Made by a program: the position numbers and the translations under genes. The notes under the pieces are model-generated. The model saw nothing but the letters and a program-made list of their open reading frames with translations. It had not been told where the DNA came from and searched no databases. Below, piece after piece: positions 4,694-37,395 of a stretch of 38,060 nt of DNA; positions within the stretch are counted from its first letter, which is position 1, and every line of letters starts with the position of its first letter. The DNA is from Betaproteobacteria bacterium (GTDB lineage: Bacteria; Pseudomonadota; Gammaproteobacteria; Burkholderiales; Burkholderiaceae_C). Location of the stretch: the NCBI GenBank assembly GCA_009925925.1, contig RFQA01000007.1:1-38060 (forward strand), given 5' to 3'.

Positions 4694-5464
4694 TCAGGCA
4701 AGCTTCAAGCTGCTGGCATGCAAGCAAATGGCCGCTGCCGCTGCCACATTGAGGGACTCTTCCCCGCCCGGCTGGCCAATGCGGGCAAACACCTTGGCTT
4801 TGGCCATGAGTGCGTCAGACACGCCCTGCCCTTCGTGCCCCATGGCCCATGCACAAGGGTGAGGCAAATCCAGCTTTTGCACCAGATCCCCCTGGTGTGA
4901 ACTCGTCACCACCAAGGGTACTTTCAATGTTTCCAGGTCTTGCAGCTCCAGCCCTTCGATCAATCGAAGCCCAAAGTGCGCGCCCATGCCGGCGCGCAAT
5001 ACTTTGGGACTCCAGAGTGCAGCCGAACCTTTGAGGGCGAGCACCTGACGGAAACCGAAGGCCACTGCACTGCGCAGGATGGAGCCCACATTGCCGGCAT
5101 CCTGCACCCGGTCGAGAATGACGGTGGCGGCCAAGGGTTCGACGCTTACTGCTTCTGGCAGGTCGACAACAAAGCCCAGTTTGGCAGGCGACTCCAACCC
5201 ACTGACTTCCCGGAACAAGGCGTCCGGAATCACTACAGTTTTGATAGCTGCCTGAGCATATTCCACGGGAGCCATCGGCATAAATGACTCGGAAACCACC
5301 AGTATCGATGGGACCACACCACGCGCCAATGCGGCACTGCACAAGTGGTCACCCTCAATCCAGAAGCGCCCCGCCTTGCGGTAAGCGGTGTTGTCGGTGC
5401 TGAGCTTGCGCAGCTCCTTGAGGAGCACGTTTTCGCGAGAACTGATGAAGATGGGTTCAGACAT
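4694..5464 (-). CDS. TrmH/SpoU-family RNA 2'-O-methyltransferase
   Basis: SPOUT-class methyltransferase that probably methylates a ribose 2'-O in rRNA or tRNA with S-adenosylmethionine. It has 256 residues: an N-terminal substrate-binding domain (about 1-105), then the knotted catalytic domain with motif 1 NVGSILR (125-131, catalytic Arg131), motif 2 MGHEGQG (208-214) and motif 3 EESLNVAAA (235-243). The family contains RlmB and several uncharacterised paralogues; the sequence does not let me choose the RNA target. It is last in the lpx-rnhB series, 7 nt after rnhB. Residues about 62-76 (APVEYAQAAIKT) are encoded by a copy of the dispersed palindrome described at 5239-5279. Confidence 0.9.
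   Translation of the reverse strand: MSEPIFISSRENVLLKELRKLSTDNTAYRKAGRFWIEGDHLCSAALARGVVPSILVVSESFMPMAPVEYAQAAIKTVVIPDALFREVSGLESPAKLGFVVDLPEAVSVEPLAATVILDRVQDAGNVGSILRSAVAFGFRQVLALKGSAALWSPKVLRAGMGAHFGLRLIEGLELQDLETLKVPLVVTSSHQGDLVQKLDLPHPCAWAMGHEGQGVSDALMAKAKVFARIGQPGGEESLNVAAAAAICLHASSLKLA
5239..5279. repeat. dispersed palindrome, copy inside the RNA methyltransferase gene
   Basis: Plus-strand TTTGATAGCTGCC followed by TGAGCATATTCCACGGGAGC aligns without gaps to the reverse complement of the intergenic copy at 24301-24335. Shared positions are TAGCTGC, the GCA, ATTCCA, then GGG and GC. The right arm has decayed. The copy is in frame with the gene and encodes about 14 residues near position 62-76, in the linker between the two domains. 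Confidence 0.6.
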
Positions 5465-5471
5465 AAAGGCT

Positions 5472-6110
5472 TCAAAGCACGCGGGTTACCGGCGCAAATG
5501 TTTTCCGATGCTCAGGGCACGCACCGTGGGTCTGCAAAGCGGCCAGGTGCTCGGCAGTGCCATAGCCCTTGTGGGTGGCAAAGCCGTATTGGGGGTATCG
5601 AGCATCCAACTCGGTACACCAGCGGTCGCGAGTCACCTTGGCGAGGATGGAGGCAGCCGAAATGGCTGGTACCGTGGCATCGCCCTTGACAATGGCTTCA
5701 GCCAACACATCCAGTACCGGCAGGCGGTTGCCATCGACCAGCACCTTGGCGGGCTTGAGGCGCAAGCCTTCGACGGCGCGGCGCATGGCGAGCAAAGTGG
5801 CTTGCAGGATATTGATTTCGTCGATCTCTTCCACACTGGCCTGTGCGATGGAGCAGCACAAGGCTTTGGCGCGGATTTCGTCAAACAGCTTTTCTCGGCG
5901 CGCAGCGCTGAGCTTCTTGGAGTCGTTCAAGCCGGCAATCGGGCGCAGATCATCCAGAATGACAGCAGCAGCCACCACCGGCCCGGCCAAGGGGCCGCGC
6001 CCGGCCTCGTCCACTCCGGCGACCAGTCCCGGAATGTCCCAGCTGAAGGCCGCTTGCTGCACCTTGGCAGCGAAGGTGCTTTTAGCTTTGGAGGACTTTT
6101 TCAATGGCAT
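5472..6110 (-). CDS. rnhB: ribonuclease HII
   Basis: Cytoplasmic endonuclease that cleaves the RNA strand of RNA-DNA hybrids, including single ribonucleotides left in DNA. From the ATG at 6110 the protein has 212 residues. The four metal-binding acidic residues are present: Asp34 and Glu35 in [14 protein letters not shown], Asp126 in LVDGN and Asp144 in [15 protein letters not shown] basic, alanine-rich tail of about 25 residues precedes the core. The start overlaps the end of lpxB by 29 nt. An in-frame TTG three codons upstream is possible but has no better ribosome binding site. Its place after lpxB is common in proteobacteria. Confidence 0.95.
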
Positions 6111-7257
6111 CGGTGGCAAGGGCGGCGGTGTCGCGCAGCAACTCGGTGTGCAGCGCGCGGAAGGTGGATTCGAGAGCGGCTATTTTCGCAGGCTCTTGTC
6201 GGGCCGCGTCCAACCAATGCAACACGCCGGCCGCGAGTGCTTCGGGTGTGGCTGCATCCTGCAGCAGCTCAGGCACCACAAAGTCGCGACACAAGATATT
6301 GGGCAAGCCCACCCAGGGCTGCAGCCGCTTGCGGCGCATGATCTGCCAGGACAACCAGGACATGTGGTAGCCGATCACCATGGGGCGCTTGAACAAGGCT
6401 GCCTCCAAGGTGGCGGTGCCGCTGGCAATCAGGGTGACATCACAGGCGGCCAAGACTGTGTGGGATTGGCCGGTCAAGAGCTGCAAACGCCCTGCCATGC
6501 CACTACGCTGCGCAATCGCTTCTATTTCGGGCAGCAAGCCAGGAACCGCTGGCACTATGAATTTGATAGCTGGTCGCGCAGACTGGATGAGCGCTGCAGC
6601 CCTAAAGAATCTGAAAGCTAAGTGGCGGATTTCCGACTGTCGGCTGCCCGGCAAAATGGCTACCACCTCGTCAGTGTCGGATAGGCCCAGTCCGCGGCGC
6701 GCGGCTGCCCTGTCCGGCTCCATAGGAATGACATTGGCCAAAGGATGGCCCACATAGGTCGCGGCGATCCCATGCGAAGCCAGCAATTCCGGCTCGAAGG
6801 GAAAAATGCACAGCACATGGTCGGTGCTGCGGCGCAGTTTTTCCACCCGCTCAGGGCGCCAGGCCCAGATGGAGGGGCAGACGAAATGCACTGTCTTGAC
6901 CCCCTGCACCTTGAGGCGGGCTTCGAGATCCAGATTGAAATCCGGCGCATCCACGCCAATGAACACATCCGGCTTATGGACCAAAAGTCGGTCACCCAAT
7001 GCATCGCGGATACCCACGATTTCACGGTAACGGCGCAACAGCTCCCAGCTGAAGCCATGCACTGCCAACTTGTGGTGTGGCCACCAAGCTTGGAAGCCCT
7101 GCTTGGCCATCTGCGGGCCGCCTATGCCGTGAGCGATCGCTCCTTGCCAGCGTTGATGCACGCCCGCAAGTAGCAGCCCCGCCAGCAAATCGCCGGAAGC
7201 CTCGCCCGCCACCATCGCGATAACAGGCGCATCCTTCGCGCGGGGGCTGCTCTCCAT
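6082..7257 (-). CDS. lpxB: lipid-A-disaccharide synthase
   Basis: Glycosyltransferase family 19 enzyme that condenses UDP-2,3-diacylglucosamine with lipid X (2,3-diacylglucosamine 1-phosphate) to the lipid A disaccharide, peripheral to the inner membrane. It has 391 residues, close to the E. coli length. Recognisable blocks are [11 protein letters not shown] near the start, [45 protein letters not shown] and [10 protein letters not shown]. The ATG at 7257 is chosen; a GTG immediately before it (7260) is equally possible. It lies 22 nt after lpxA and overlaps rnhB. Residues about 219-233 ([15 protein letters not shown]) are encoded by DNA resembling the dispersed palindrome, without changing the protein length noticeably. 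Confidence 0.95.
6560..6604. repeat. dispersed palindrome, copy inside lpxB
   Basis: Plus strand ATTTGATAGCTGGTCGCGCA, then GACTGGATGAGCGCTGCAGC. It shares TTTGATAGCTG with the copy at 5239 and the TAGCTG-n4-GCGCA / GAGCGCT arms with the family. The middle differs (GACTGGATGA rather than ATTCCA), so it may be a different subfamily. It is read in frame as part of LpxB. Confidence 0.5.
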
Positions 7258-7279
7258 CACAGGCCGTGAACGCTAACGC

Positions 7280-22852: not shown

Positions 22853-24296
22853 GTGGATTCTTTCCACCCAGGGTCCCAAGGCTTTTGCGCGTTTCCCTGT
22901 CCTCGACACCATCGCATCTAGGACATTTGAGAAAAACGCCGCATCGAATTCCCCCCCCGGCTACCTGATGCAACAGGCAGGCTTGGCTTTGGCGAAGCTT
23001 GCGCTAGCCGTAGCACCGCATGCACACTTTTTTTGGATTGCTTGTGGGCGTGGCAACAACGGCGGCGATGGCCTGGAGGCCGCGATCCACCTCCACCAGT
23101 GGGGCAAAAAAATCCATGTCAGCATGCCCCCAGGCGACAAACCCATATCTGCTGACGCTGGATGGGCCCTCGCAAAGGCACGCCAAGCCGGCGTGCTCAT
23201 CCATGACCACGCTCCGGATCATTGGGACGCATGCATTGATGCGCTGCTGGGTATTGGGCTGAGCAATGCACCTACCGGGACTTACGCTGATTGGATCGGC
23301 CGCATCAACTCGCAATCTAGCGACGTCATCTCCGCCGACATTCCCAGCGGACTGATGGCTGACACCGGTGATGCACCTGGCGCCTGCGTAGCGGCCACCC
23401 ACACCCTGTCGATGCTGAGTTTGAAACCGGGCCAATTGACCTATCAGGGACGGGATGCCTGTGGCAATGTCTGGCTCACCTGCTTGGGGGTGGCTGCACC
23501 CATGGAGCCGACAGCGTGGCTGAATCCCTTGCCCGCTGTTCACCAACGCCCCCATCTCTCCCACAAAGGCAGTTTTGGAGACGTTGCCATTGCGGGCGGC
23601 ACGCTGGGCATGCAGGGTGCGGCTGTATTGGCGGCTCGGGCAGCATTGCAGTCCGGAGCTGGGCGGGTGTACCTCGCTTTGCTGCCCTCGGCGCAAGGGA
23701 ATATTTCAGCCCACGTTCCTGCGGACATCATGCAGCGACATGCAGACGTACTGCAGCCTCAACAGCTGACGCTGGTCGCCGGTTGCGGAGGCGGTGAAGA
23801 GATTGCTCATGCCCTCCCACGCTTGCTCATGGAGTCCAAGCACTTGGTTTTGGACGCCGACGCGCTCAACGCCATTGCGGCGTCCGCCGACCTCCAAAAA
23901 CTGCTTCAGGGTCGCGCCGGAGACACAACAGTGATCACCCCTCACCCTTTAGAGGCAGCACGTTTGCTGGGCTGCAGCGTCGGCGAAGTGCAAGCAGACC
24001 GCTTACGAGCCGCGCAACTTATGGCGAAGCGATTCAAGTGCACTGTAATCCTCAAAGGCTCCGGAAGCGTCATCGCTGCACCAGATCGTGCACCGTACAT
24101 CAACCCCACCGGAAACGGCAAACTGGCCATCGCCGGAACGGGCGACGTACTTGCAGGCATGACAGGCGCCGCATTGGCGCGCCACGCCAGTGCGTGGAAG
24201 GCAGCATGCGAAGCCTGTTACCGCCATGGTGCCCTAGCGGATCAGTGGGCGACCTCCACCTCGCTCACTGCCAGCAGATTACTGAAATCCATATAA
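22842..24296 (+). CDS. nnr: bifunctional NAD(P)H-hydrate epimerase / ADP-dependent NAD(P)H-hydrate dehydratase
   Basis: Metabolite-repair enzyme: the N-terminal YjeF domain epimerises damaged NADHX/NADPHX and the C-terminal ribokinase-like domain dehydrates the S form back to NAD(P)H using ADP. It has 484 residues (E. coli 515). The epimerase domain has CGRGNNGGDG (residues 68-77) and DALLGIGL. The dehydratase domain has KGSFGDVAIAGG, VLDADALN, ITPHPLEAARLLG and GNGKLAIAGTGDVLAGMTGA. The ATG at 22842 lies inside the end of the MBL gene; the frame is open further upstream but only in that gene's shadow. A run of eight C's at 22951-22958 leaves the frame intact. Confidence 0.93.
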   Translation: MNSEWILSTQGPKAFARFPVLDTIASRTFEKNAASNSPPGYLMQQAGLALAKLALAVAPHAHFFWIACGRGNNGGDGLEAAIHLHQWGKKIHVSMPPGDKPISADAGWALAKARQAGVLIHDHAPDHWDACIDALLGIGLSNAPTGTYADWIGRINSQSSDVISADIPSGLMADTGDAPGACVAATHTLSMLSLKPGQLTYQGRDACGNVWLTCLGVAAPMEPTAWLNPLPAVHQRPHLSHKGSFGDVAIAGGTLGMQGAAVLAARAALQSGAGRVYLALLPSAQGNISAHVPADIMQRHADVLQPQQLTLVAGCGGGEEIAHALPRLLMESKHLVLDADALNAIAASADLQKLLQGRAGDTTVITPHPLEAARLLGCSVGEVQADRLRAAQLMAKRFKCTVILKGSGSVIAAPDRAPYINPTGNGKLAIAGTGDVLAGMTGAALARHASAWKAACEACYRHGALADQWATSTSLTASRLLKSI

Positions 24297-24350
24297 AAAA
24301 AGCTGCTAGCGCCCATGGAATGTGCGCCAGCAGCTATTATTTCCATAGCA
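24294..24350. repeat. dispersed palindrome, intergenic copy
   Basis: AGCTGCTAGCGC (24301-24312) and GCGCCAGCAGCT (24324-24335) form 12-bp arms with one mismatch around an 11-nt spacer, flanked by an A-run on the left and TATTATTT on the right. It fills the 67-nt gap between the convergent nnr and rnr genes and may act as a bidirectional terminator. It is the best-preserved member of the family also found at 5239, 6560, 30157 and 37078. Confidence 0.8.
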
Positions 24351-24363
24351 AATATTTATCAGG

Positions 24364-26631
24364 CTATCTGCGCTTCTTTGCGGCTTTTTTCGTTGAAGGA
24401 CTTGCCTTTTCGGCGCCTCGGCTGCTGCGCGAAGACTTCGTTGCACTTCGCTGCTGGCGAACCTTGCCTTTGAAGGCAGCGCCCGTCCCGGCGTCCGGCT
24501 CTGAACGCCCAGCGAAGTCAGCGCGACCCGGTTTGCCATCACGACCTGCACCCTTCTCCGGTGGCAGCCTGGGAATGGATCCCACTCCCTCTTGCACCAA
24601 GCGGAAGTCAATCTTGCGCCCATCCAAGTCCACACGGCTGACCTGAATCCGGACCCGCGTACCGATCGCATAGCGGATACCGGTGCGCTCACCTCGAAGT
24701 TCCTGCTTTGCCTCATCAAACCGGAAGTATTCGCCACCGAGCTCAGTGATGTGGACAAGGCCTTCCACGTACATTGCATCCAATGTCACAAACAGGCCGA
24801 AGGTGGTCGCAGAGGACACAACGCCCGAATACTCCTCACCCAAATGCTCGCGCATGTACTTGCATTTGAGCCAAGCCTCCACATCTCGACTGGCTTCGTC
24901 AGCGCGGCGCTCGTTTGCACTGCAGTGCAAACCAGCAGCCTGCCATGCGGTTCCTTCCGCATTGAGTTTTTTGGGTTTGGTTTCCGGATTGGTCACCCGC
25001 GACGCCAGATTCTTCTCCAGGCGTCGGGCGAGCTTGGCGTGTGCTTCACCCGGCGTCGGCAGCGCTGGCAACTGGTATTTGCTCTTCGCGAGGATCGCTT
25101 TGATTACACGGTGCACCAGCAAATCCGGATAGCGCCGGATCGGGCTGGTGAAGTGAGTGTAGGCATCAAACGCCAAGCCAAAGTGCCCGCTGTTGATAGG
25201 CGTATATATCGCCTGCGACATGGAGCGCAAGAGCATGGAGTGGATCTGCTGCGCATCCGGCCGGTCTTTGGTGGCTTCTGCAATTGCTTGAAACTCGCCG
25301 GGGGTAGGCTTATCGCTGATCGACATGCCGATGCCGCTCGCCTTCAGGTAATTGCGAAGCATCTCCTGCTTTTCAGGCGTAGGACCTTCGTGCACGCGAA
25401 AGAGGCCTTGGTGCTTGTTCTGGGCAATGAAGTCTGCACTACAGACGTTCGCAGCCAGCATGGCCTCTTCAATCAAACGGTGCGCCGTGTTGCGGGTACG
25501 GGGAACGATTTTCTCGATGCGCCCGTTTTCATCACACACGATCTGCGTCTCAGTAGTCTCGAAATCCACAGCACCCCGTTTGTGGCGGGACTTGAGCAAT
25601 GCCTGGTAGACACCATGCAAGTTCAACAGATCCTGCACTCGCTCCTTGCGTTTACTGGCTTCAGGACCACGCGTGTTGCCGAGAATGGCGGCCACCTCTG
25701 TGTATGTGAACCGTGCGTGGCTCCACATCACGGCGGGATAGAACTGGTAAGCATCCACCTCGCCGTCTTCGGTGATGAACATGTCGCACACCATGCACAG
25801 TCGCTCGACTTCCGGGTTCAGCGAACACAATCCATTGGACAGTTTCTCCGGCAACATCGGAATGACGCGGCGGGGGAAGTAGACACTGGTGGCGCGGTCA
25901 TAGGCATCCACGTCAATGGCATTGCCTGTCTCCACATAGTGACTGACATCCGCAATTGCCACCAACAAACGCCAGCCTTTCAGTGCCGTCTTGCCGCGCC
26001 CTTTGCTGGCCGGCTCACAGTACACCGCATCATCAAAGTCCCGTGCATCTTCACCGTCGATGGTGACCAAGGGAATATCGGTGAGGTCGATGCGGTGCAA
26101 TTTGTCTTGGGGTCGGACCTTGTCCGGCAGAGTCCGAGCAAGAGCTACGCAGGCATCCGAAAACTCATGCGGCACGCTGTATTTGCGCACTGCGATTTCA
26201 ATCTCCATGCCGGGGTCGTCCACTTCACCCAGGACCTCTTTGATACGCCCCACCGGCTGACCAAACAGGGCGGGAGGTTCAATCAGTTCCACCACTACCA
26301 CTTGTCCGGGTTTGGCCACACTGGTAGCCCCTTTGGGGATCAATACATCTTGCCCATAACGCTTGTCTTCAGGCGCCACCAGCCAGACACCGCTCTCCTG
26401 CAAAAGCCTGCCGATGATGGGTTGCTTGGAGCGCTCCGTGATTTCCACCACCCGCCCTTCGGGGCGTCCCTTGCGGTCGCTTCGTACGATGCGGACCTTG
26501 ACGCGGTCTTTGTGCAGCACGGCCCGCATTTCATTGGGGGGAAGGTAAATGTCGGGAGCACCGTCATCGCGGGACACGAAGCCGTGTCCATCACGATGCC
26601 CCTGAACAATTCCTTCAACTTCTTCCAGCAA
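24364..26631 (-). CDS. rnr: ribonuclease R
   Basis: Processive 3'-5' exoribonuclease that degrades structured RNA, rRNA and tmRNA-tagged messages. From the TTG at 26631 it has 755 residues. Order: cold-shock/OB domains (EGIVQGHRDGHGFV, then IGRLLQESGVWLVAPEDKR), RNB catalytic domain with IDGEDARDFDDAVY (191-204) supplying metal-binding Asp residues, an S1 domain near 640-720 (YSGVVSSATTFGLFVTLD), and a basic lysine/serine/arginine-rich tail. The frame continues upstream through the antisense of tRNA-Leu, which is not protein. TTG is the only start codon near the conserved N-terminus; no ATG is available and the ribosome binding site is weak. Confidence 0.93.
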   Translation of the reverse strand: MLEEVEGIVQGHRDGHGFVSRDDGAPDIYLPPNEMRAVLHKDRVKVRIVRSDRKGRPEGRVVEITERSKQPIIGRLLQESGVWLVAPEDKRYGQDVLIPKGATSVAKPGQVVVVELIEPPALFGQPVGRIKEVLGEVDDPGMEIEIAVRKYSVPHEFSDACVALARTLPDKVRPQDKLHRIDLTDIPLVTIDGEDARDFDDAVYCEPASKGRGKTALKGWRLLVAIADVSHYVETGNAIDVDAYDRATSVYFPRRVIPMLPEKLSNGLCSLNPEVERLCMVCDMFITEDGEVDAYQFYPAVMWSHARFTYTEVAAILGNTRGPEASKRKERVQDLLNLHGVYQALLKSRHKRGAVDFETTETQIVCDENGRIEKIVPRTRNTAHRLIEEAMLAANVCSADFIAQNKHQGLFRVHEGPTPEKQEMLRNYLKASGIGMSISDKPTPGEFQAIAEATKDRPDAQQIHSMLLRSMSQAIYTPINSGHFGLAFDAYTHFTSPIRRYPDLLVHRVIKAILAKSKYQLPALPTPGEAHAKLARRLEKNLASRVTNPETKPKKLNAEGTAWQAAGLHCSANERRADEASRDVEAWLKCKYMREHLGEEYSGVVSSATTFGLFVTLDAMYVEGLVHITELGGEYFRFDEAKQELRGERTGIRYAIGTRVRIQVSRVDLDGRKIDFRLVQEGVGSIPRLPPEKGAGRDGKPGRADFAGRSEPDAGTGAAFKGKVRQQRSATKSSRSSRGAEKASPSTKKAAKKRR

Positions 26632-29928: not shown

Positions 29929-30831
29929 TTATCGGTGCGCTCGGATCGAAGACACCATCCCCAAAATGAAAATCGCACTGGCCAGCCATTGCAAGGCTGT
30001 AGGCCAGTCTCCGTACACCAGAAACGCATAGACGAGTGCAAACAAGGTTTCGGAGACGATAAGTTGCCCGCACAAACTGGCACTCAATCGCCGGCTTGCA
30101 AAATTCCAAAGCACGGCCGCGATCCATGCTGAACCAATGCCCGTTGCTATACAAACCATAGCTGCCCGCGCAACATCTGCCTGCGCCAGCAGGTCTTTGG
30201 CGGGTGTTCCCAAGGCCACCCACAGGAACCAAGCCGCCAAGCCCGCATTCACGCCCATCCAACTCGTCCAGTCCCTCAAGCTCACATTGGTGTGTTGCTT
30301 AAGCCATGCCGAATTGATGATCGCAAAGGCCACCCAAAAGACCATGGCCAACAAGCCATAGAGCACCCCGCGCCAGAATATCCAACCGTGCATTTGAACG
30401 CCGCTGCCACTGCTTTCAGCCGCCATCATGGTGGCGACACCTGCCATTGTGAGTAGCAAGCCCGGAATCAGGCTGCGCCAGCGTAAGCCCACAGGCTTAC
30501 CAAGCAACATGACCCACACGGGTATGGTCCCGATGATCATGGTGGGCACTTCCACACCCGAATCCCGGATGGCGTAAACCAGCAGCAAGTAGTAGCCGGA
30601 GAAACCCAAGACGCTTAGCAGCAGTGCCGTCCCCGCTTGCTTCAGGGTAGGCTGACGTGAACTTCCATTCAACAGGCCAATACCGATCATGCACAGCGAT
30701 GTGAGACCGAAAACCACAAAACGCCCGGCAGTGAGATCCACCGGCGACAAACCCGGTGCCATTGCAGGCGCCACAAACACCAAGCCCCACAAGGCACCGG
30801 CCGCCAGACCAGCAATTACCCCGGCTAGCAA
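29929..30831 (-). CDS. EamA/DMT-superfamily membrane transporter
   Basis: Ten-helix drug/metabolite transporter, 300 residues, made of two EamA repeats (about 1-135 and 150-298). The first helix reads MLAGVIAGLAAGALWGLVFVAP. The substrate is unknown; family members export amino acids, metabolites or drugs. The only in-frame start is TTG at 30831, without a clear ribosome binding site, because an in-frame stop lies six codons upstream. It follows the second SDR gene by 45 nt on the same strand and converges on the first SDR. Residues about 214-225 (LLAQADVARAAM) coincide with a degenerate copy of the dispersed palindrome. Confidence 0.85.
   Translation of the reverse strand: MLAGVIAGLAAGALWGLVFVAPAMAPGLSPVDLTAGRFVVFGLTSLCMIGIGLLNGSSRQPTLKQAGTALLLSVLGFSGYYLLLVYAIRDSGVEVPTMIIGTIPVWVMLLGKPVGLRWRSLIPGLLLTMAGVATMMAAESSGSGVQMHGWIFWRGVLYGLLAMVFWVAFAIINSAWLKQHTNVSLRDWTSWMGVNAGLAAWFLWVALGTPAKDLLAQADVARAAMVCIATGIGSAWIAAVLWNFASRRLSASLCGQLIVSETLFALVYAFLVYGDWPTALQWLASAIFILGMVSSIRAHR
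30157..30193. repeat. dispersed palindrome, degenerate copy inside the EamA gene
   Basis: The arms CTGCCCGCGCA and TGCGCCAGCAG (complementary at 9 of 11 positions) surround a 9-nt spacer; the left arm is preceded by ATAG. Arm sequence and spacing match the intergenic copy at 24301-24335, though the spacer differs. It is read in frame as part of the transporter. Confidence 0.5.
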
Positions 30832-35898: not shown

Positions 35899-35902
35899 CG
35901 GC

Positions 35903-36147
35903 TCCGTTCAGGAGAGAGCCCTTCACGGGGCCGCCGAAGGCGCAGGACGGCTGATTGCAGCGGTCTGAACGCTCAGGCAAAAGGACTGATCCCTGCCGGC
36001 AAGGCTTGCTCTGCCGGCAACACCCCACTGGAGAGAGTTTGCACCGCACAGCGGCCTGCAAACCACCGAAGGAGCAACCCGCAGTCTGCGCACCCCACCC
36101 CGTGCACGCAGGCCCGGCGAATCTCTCAGGTAAAGCGGACAGCGGGG
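35903..36147 (+). ncRNA. tandem glycine riboswitch
   Basis: Two glycine aptamers upstream of gcvT. Aptamer 1 (about 35903-35989) shows CAGGAGAGAG, GCCGAAGGCGCA and CTCAGGCAAAAGGACTGA. Aptamer 2 (about 36024-36147) shows TGGAGAGAG, CACCGAAGGAGCAA and CTCTCAGGTAAAGCGGACA, closed by a CCCC/GGGG outer stem. Glycine binding normally switches on the glycine cleavage genes. The 34-nt linker between aptamers contains TGCCGGCA twice (35994-36001 and 36012-36019), able to form an extra eight-pair hairpin; linkers in known tandem examples are usually shorter. Confidence 0.93.
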
Positions 36148-36153
36148 GCAGCA

Positions 36154-36234: not shown

Positions 36235-37395
36235 ATGTCCGCTTCTGACACAACCTTGTTGACCACGCCGCTCAGCGCATTGCACACAGAGCTGGGCGCC
36301 CGCATGGTGCCGTTCGCCGGTTACTCCATGCCGGTTCAGTACCCTGCAGGCCTGATGGCCGAACACCACCACACCCGCAAAGCCGCCGGCCTGTTTGACG
36401 TGTCCCACATGGGCCAGCTGCGCCTGAGCGGCCCGGACGCCTGCGCGGCGTTTGAGAGCCTGATGCCGGTGGACGTGATCGACCTGCCCGTGGGCAAACA
36501 GCGCTACGGCCTGTTGCTCACCGAAGAGGGCACGATCATCGATGACCTGATGTTCTTCAAAAAGGCGCAAAACGAACTCTTCGTCATCGTCAACGGTGCC
36601 TGCAAGGCGGGGGATATCGCCCACATCCAAGCCCAGATCGGCAAGCGCTGCCAGGTCACCCCCCTGCCCGACTACGCGCTGCTGGCCCTCCAAGGCCCGC
36701 AGGCGGTGACGGCGCTGGCCCGCCTGGCACCCGGCGTGGAAAAGCTGGTGTTCATGACGGGTGGAGACTTCACGGTCGACACCGGCACCCAAAAGATCAA
36801 CGTGTTCCTCACCCGCAGCGGCTACACCGGTGAAGACGGTTTTGAGATCTCGGTCCACAACGAGCACGCCGAAGCCCTGGCCCGCGCCCTGCTGGCACAG
36901 CCCGAAGTACAGCCCATCGGCCTGGGTGCCCGCAACTCCCTGCGCCTGGAAGCCGGCTTGTGCCTGTATGGCAACGACATTGACACCACCACCACGCCGG
37001 TAGAAGCCAGCCTGAACTGGGCCATCCAGAAAGTGCGCCGCACCGGTGGTGCGCGCGCAGGCGGCTTCCCCGGCGCTACAAAAATCCTAGCTGCTCTCGC
37101 AGATTCCACCGGGGCTAGCGGCACAAAAGGCACCAAAAAGCGGGTGGGCCTGATTGCGCAGGAGCGCATTCCGGTGCGCGAGCACACCGAGCTGCAAGAC
37201 GGCGCGGGCAACCGTATCGGCGAAGTCACCAGCGGTCTGCTCGGCCCCACCATCAACCAGTGCGTGGCCATGGGCTATATCGACGCTTCGCTGGCGGCTT
37301 TGGGCACCCCGGTGGTGGCCATAGTCCGCGGCAAACCGGTGCCCATGGTGGTGAGTGCCATGCCCTTTGTGCCCACGAACTACTACCGCGGCTGA
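36235..37395 (+). CDS. gcvT: glycine cleavage system T protein (aminomethyltransferase)
   Basis: Transfers the methylene group from the aminomethyl-lipoyl H protein to tetrahydrofolate, releasing ammonia. It has 386 residues, slightly longer than usual (about 365-375). Family blocks are VPFAGYSMPVQYPAG, GLFDVSHMGQ, TRSGYTGEDGFEI, GLGARNSLRLEAGLCLYGND and the ending VPTNYYRG. Asp in NDIDTTTTPVEASL is the expected catalytic-region acid. Residues about 282-298 (TKILAALADSTGASGTK) include roughly 8-10 extra residues encoded by a copy of the dispersed palindrome. First gene after the glycine riboswitch. Confidence 0.96.
   Translation: MSASDTTLLTTPLSALHTELGARMVPFAGYSMPVQYPAGLMAEHHHTRKAAGLFDVSHMGQLRLSGPDACAAFESLMPVDVIDLPVGKQRYGLLLTEEGTIIDDLMFFKKAQNELFVIVNGACKAGDIAHIQAQIGKRCQVTPLPDYALLALQGPQAVTALARLAPGVEKLVFMTGGDFTVDTGTQKINVFLTRSGYTGEDGFEISVHNEHAEALARALLAQPEVQPIGLGARNSLRLEAGLCLYGNDIDTTTTPVEASLNWAIQKVRRTGGARAGGFPGATKILAALADSTGASGTKGTKKRVGLIAQERIPVREHTELQDGAGNRIGEVTSGLLGPTINQCVAMGYIDASLAALGTPVVAIVRGKPVPMVVSAMPFVPTNYYRG
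37078..37126. repeat. dispersed palindrome, in-frame insertion in gcvT
   Basis: AAAATCCTAGCTGCTCTCGC, then AGATTCCACCGGGGCTAGCG. Against the reverse complement of the intergenic copy (24301-24335) it shares TAGCTGCT, CGCA, ATTCCA, GGG/GG and GCTAGC. It ends with GGCACAAAA. It lies in a surface segment where relatives have a shorter loop, so it appears to have lengthened the protein without breaking the frame. Confidence 0.65.

Follow-up and report, generated by a model that had tools for sequence, protein, structure and literature searches.

The window, i.e. the whole stretch of 38,060 nucleotides analysed here from contig RFQA01000007.1 of a Betaproteobacteria bacterium, carries five copies of a repeat, one of them between genes and four within genes. 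The intergenic copy (24284-24354, minus strand; 73.4 bits, E 9e-13; 65-nt core 24287-24351) is situated between two convergent genes, a YjeF-family NAD(P)H-hydrate repair gene ending at 24296 and an RNase R gene ending at 24364. It is the most palindromic copy of the window, and the relative G120 shows a weak match (14 bits) at the same site. The genic copies all lie on the plus strand, and three of them occur in genes of the minus strand which read them in an antisense frame: a SpoU-family rRNA methyltransferase gene (4694-5464) with a copy at 5227-5297 (65.2 bits), lpxB (6082-7260) with a copy at 6549-6619 (32.5 bits, E 1e-4) and an EamA-family transporter gene (29929-30831) with a copy at 30141-30211 (29.0 bits, E 6e-4). 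The fourth (37070-37140; 57.1 bits) is carried by gcvT (36235-37395, plus strand), where it encodes GATKILAALADSTGASGTKGTK in the linker that joins the GCV_T domain to GCV_T_C, as judged from the Pfam borders. Two tandem glycine riboswitch aptamers (35899-36152) are present directly upstream of gcvT. At the start of the contig, coding sequence contains a perfect inverted repeat with arms of 49 nt (1-49 and 59-107) and a 9-nt spacer, which has the appearance of an artefact of assembly or library, formed by fold-back at the end of the contig.

These copies were recovered with a covariance/sequence model trained on 35 copies from the genome, three of the five window copies being among them and those at 6549-6619 and 30141-30211 lying outside the training set. 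The five segments proposed in the initial annotation to form one family are exactly the five best matches of this model in the window, each full-length and gap-free, and the next match reaches an E-value of only 0.27. The family had thus been recognised correctly, with spans that were too short, the real copies measuring about 65-71 nt; the placement of four of the five copies in frame within genes was also borne out. None of the five matched any Rfam family.

Copy number and sequence of the motif

A census of the motif was carried out on stretches totalling 1,559,104 bases, about 40% of the genome (a draft assembly of 3.86 Mb in 465 contigs, 94.6% complete). A genome-wide search with the pattern TAGCTGCNNGCGCANATTCCA, allowing at most three mismatches, gave 257 matches against 2 in the reversed control, and an iterated profile gave 228 matches of at least 10 bits against 1 in reversed DNA. 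At the census cut of 12 bits, 223 copies were found in 1.56 Mb and none in the reversed control, and a PWM threshold of at least 20 bits retained 211 matches against 0. Extrapolation yields about 550 copies in the genome, or about one per 7 kb, and the suggestion of a dispersed family that is abundant in the Comamonadaceae is supported. The consensus, TTGCTATnAATTTnATAGCTGCTYGCGCAnATTCCAYGRGCGCYAGnGGCnnATTTGAnnCnnAAA, is asymmetric, extends over about 65 nt and holds about 55 bits of information in total. The copies are whole-length, with mismatches scattered along the motif. The core without the rest of the motif is no more frequent than in the control. Unlike the core, the left third of the motif, TTGCTATnnATTTnATAGC, is somewhat in excess even where the rest is missing (110 matches against 50 in the control at 12 bits), which may reflect copies in decay or a shorter signal akin to the motif.

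The motif had initially been described as a palindrome. In 199 copies, the counts of Watson-Crick pairs equal the expectation from column composition at every stem position, and RNAalifold retains only three pairs in the consensus fold; a structural palindrome is rejected on both grounds, and palindromy is a feature of the copy around 24301 and not of the family. Since the stem pairs do not covary, it is the primary sequence that is kept. Invariant positions adjoin variable ones, the position between GCGCA and ATTCCA for instance being nearly random, a pattern resembling that of sites read by proteins.

Siting of the copies and their origin in coding DNA

Genes were predicted with a simple codon-usage gene caller, which assigns 87% of the bases to coding sequence and places gene starts approximately. 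By this measure 85 of the 223 copies (about 38%) lie wholly in called genes, 9 lie partly in genes and 129 are intergenic. Copies are enriched at convergent junctions, where 36 of 179 carry one as against 80 of 1115 other junctions (p 4e-7). The counts per 20 kb are near-Poisson (variance/mean 0.86). Copy density climbs with the GC content and codon adaptation of the locus and low-GC loci are depleted (rho 0.51, p 2e-6), foreign DNA being judged here by the proxies of GC, codon usage and replicon; the motif is AT-richer than the source genome, yet denser in the high-GC loci. In the complete chromosome of G120 the copies are evenly spread (KS p 0.64) and occur in both orientations, and only 1 of 90 matches falls on the second replicon, which is depleted (p ~0.004). 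No replication strand bias was detected on this chromosome when replichores were taken as halves of the record (48 of 89 leading). A weak lagging excess is seen in 0.8 Mb of G120 (55:38) and in genome G000 (52:36), the sites of the two being partly shared. An apparent strand bias among the matches listed for genome G126, in which forward matches precede reverse ones, was judged to be an artefact, the complete list for G120 being unbiased. The motif differs in this respect from polar motifs of the Chi/KOPS type, which show a strong replication strand bias.

The motif is tolerated as coding sequence in restricted frames, as 74 of the 85 in-gene copies use two of the six frames, namely those that the consensus keeps free of stop codons. 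Translated copies are similar to LIAARAYSTGASG or PLAPVEYARAAIK, and several of them look like parts of signal peptides. Each of the 79 coding copies tested outscores the 60 synonymous shuffles made from the gene that carries it (mean 49.8 bits for the copies, -4.2 bits for the shuffles), and shuffling of whole coding sequences leaves 4-8 matches of at least 20 bits against 80 in the real genes. Among the window copies, the one in lpxB scores 53.2 PWM bits, while its 60 synonymous shuffles do not exceed 13.6; for the EamA-family gene the corresponding figures are 39.2 and 14.4.

The Rickettsia palindromic elements (RPE) are short repeats found in frame within conserved genes, and the initial annotation had likened the motif to them. 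The likeness extends to the in-frame position; RPE insert and add residues, whereas at several coding sites the present motif stands without insertion, and its pairing is without covariation. The lpxB copy occupies a conserved segment that aligns without gaps among the orthologues, even when these belong to other families of the order, and the scores at this site fall gradually among orthologues (58.7, 53, 45, 31, 22, 9.5, then strongly negative). The motif segments of CoaBC (66.5 PWM bits) and of alanine racemase (43.5 PWM bits) are gap-free against solved homologues, e.g. E. coli CoaB and the Pseudomonas alanine racemases, respectively. In PutA, the copy L130:9440 is without the 22-residue gap against motif-free homologues and nearly gap-free in the alignment with PDB structures. 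At these four sites, therefore, an RPE-like insertion did not hold. The SpoU-family copy likewise leaves the length of the protein unchanged against most orthologues. The putA gene (L130:7067-10147) contains three copies in all (7468, 8454 and 9440), in three different states of frame and orientation. Among about 30 copies within a Pfam match, the net length difference is at most 6 residues in roughly half; such figures are noisy (+21 in the proline dehydrogenase domain of PutA), and hence only the explicit alignments constitute firm evidence. Extra residues do occur at the motif in gcvT, whose motif-free orthologues are up to 11 residues shorter at this segment, and in a CoA transferase. They indicate that small indels occur in variable segments and, for some copies, count against an origin in place. 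The copies in coding DNA thus appear to have arisen for the most part in place, through substitutions that are frequently synonymous and preserve the protein, and repeats that are read in frame are not necessarily insertions.

Conservation and distribution among related species

Conservation was examined mainly in one species pair, with further species added at three genes. Among copies with both flanks mapped to G120 (flanks about 70-97% identical), 32 of 36 sites are occupied there, and this is the figure for site sharing relied upon here. No current mobility is therefore seen, contrary to the mobile element first envisaged. Only about one strong copy is clearly absent from G120 (L096:309-373; flanks 90-92% identical, about 95 nt missing), and gain or loss would explain this case equally well. 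Between the two species, the consensus base is kept at 94-97% of high-information positions against 81-91% of the other positions (p ~1e-7 in each direction). With more species, retention is 0.94, 0.84 and 0.71 at positions of high, mid and low information, respectively, many of these pairs being pre-selected gcvT, SpoU and LpxB sites at loci chosen for those genes. At the SpoU-family site the motif is stronger in G120 (73.1 PWM bits) than in the present genome (58.9). At third codon positions, the motif retains its high-information bases in 55 of 60 cases against 381 of 599 in the neighbouring codons; because the sites were chosen for their match in one genome, the neutral expectation should in fairness be put closer to 0.80 than to 0.64, and on this estimate the effect (about 0.80 expected, 0.92 observed) is weakened and not removed.

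Among named genomes, the nearest ones with exact copies belong to Rhodoferax, Curvibacter and further Comamonadaceae. Matches were found in 34 of 120 genomes of a family sample and in 6 of 399 genomes of an order sample, all six belonging to the same family, under strict filters that understate weak matches. In other families of the order, the orthologues were checked for the motif and lack it. At a position left free in the search pattern, the congeneric genome G112 prefers C and G120 prefers T (p 2e-7). The open-access literature searched held nothing specific on the motif or on such Comamonadaceae repeats, and no report of DNA uptake sequences (DUS) for this family.

Possible nature of the signal

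The explanation considered best, in which we place about even confidence as a whole, is a signal in double-stranded DNA that is asymmetric, specific to the lineage and about 65 bp long, dispersed over the chromosome and written through genes largely by substitution; selection or biased recombination would maintain its copies where they are. That it is a signal maintained in place and not a mobile element is highly probable, as the many genic copies formed by codon change instead of insertion give it the look of a conserved address label and not of a jumping element. A sequence-specific DNA-handling machine would read it. By analogy, the DNA-uptake or transformation pathway is the most likely putative reader, a tentative assignment; the motif would then be a signal like the DUS of Neisseriaceae and the USS of Pasteurellaceae, accumulating by molecular drive. 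DUS lie in the core genome, arise in place, are conserved above their surroundings and favour permissive regions (PMC2397512); they occur as dialects, and DUS/USS cores measure 9-12 bp (PMC3630211). The known signals are also far denser, the meningococcal 10-mer occurring about 1900 times. The present motif shares with DUS and USS its hundreds of copies in and between genes and in both orientations, as well as the in-place origin in coding DNA, conservation above the surroundings, lineage variants and scarcity in foreign DNA (PMC2397512, PMC3630211). It differs in its length of 65 bp, its information of about 55 bits, its density of about one per 7 kb and the lack of core-only copies; a short core suffices for recognition of DUS and USS, which promote uptake by way of a specific type IV pilin receptor, while the core of this motif alone is at the control count. 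Had drive proceeded gradually from a core, core-only copies should be in excess, and no such excess is seen.

Given this misfit of large size, low density and absent core-only copies with known uptake signals, a site for a chromosome-organising protein becomes a near-equal rival. Such a putative chromosome-organising or nucleoid-associated protein would recognise the motif as a site comparable to matS or Noc sites, with the sites selected at spaced positions and with no link to uptake, a reading by analogy that we hold to be a substantial possibility, well short of probable. The even chromosomal spread, the near-Poisson counts, the depletion of the second replicon and the constraint across the whole 65 bp are all in keeping with it, while the copies show neither domain restriction nor strand polarity and the enrichment at convergent gene ends is unpredicted by it. 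We know of no organiser protein with an asymmetric site of 55 bits, which also counts against it.

Descent from an old mobile palindrome of the REP, MITE or RPE kind, inserted in an ancestor into genes and intergenic regions alike and leaving today's copies as relics, is unlikely. The whole-length copies with none reduced to the core, the location of some coding copies in linkers or loops with few added residues, and the siting at convergent and 3' ends as in REPs would suit such relics; they are opposed by the gap-free copies within conserved protein segments, conservation graded by information content, the stem without covariation and the sharing of nearly all testable sites, with about one clear and ambiguous absence. 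REP/BIME elements mobilised by RAYTs are similarly short and high in copy number and are often found near stop codons and between convergent genes; they are extragenic, whereas over a third of the present copies are wholly genic. A REP-associated transposase was looked for, and a single Y1 (REP-type) domain (PF01797) was matched in the draft genome, with no motif copies in the 3.2 kb around it; a RAYT-driven REP was rejected accordingly, and the REP-family literature examined names no genera of the Comamonadaceae. The Betaproteobacteria repeat element (BRE) of Bordetella and Comamonadaceae also has some copies in coding sequence (PMC3110155). It is 75-91 bp at full length, has 69% GC in Bordetella, is often tandem and numbers at most 29 copies per genome, with 4 in Rhodoferax ferrireducens (PMC3110155), and is set apart, at the level of published descriptions, by this length, GC and copy number. 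Template-directed conversion, in which a nucleic acid of the cell some 65-70 nt long (e.g. single-stranded DNA) would repeatedly overwrite partly similar chromosomal sites and give whole-length replacement without net insertion, is very improbable. It would fit the whole-length matches with scattered mismatches, the missing core-only copies and the replacement at unchanged length in several genes; near-random single positions amid invariant ones are unexpected from one template, and the complete chromosome lacks a strand bias.

The maintained signal may, as a tentative proposal, constitute a novel class in the Comamonadaceae, a long signal (65 bp) for self-recognition or for addressing the chromosome that is written in place through protein genes. 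Where codon choice imposes a 55-bit motif on conserved protein genes hundreds of times in each genome, the chromosome sequence is under a strong constraint that lacks an explanation. Should the motif be a site for a protein, a DNA-binding system acting over the whole chromosome and not recognised so far would be indicated. Should it direct DNA uptake, it would exceed every known uptake signal several-fold in length and be the first of the Comamonadaceae; a trait recorded in two families would gain a further lineage as well as a new type, and the motif would show which freshwater bacteria exchange DNA by transformation.
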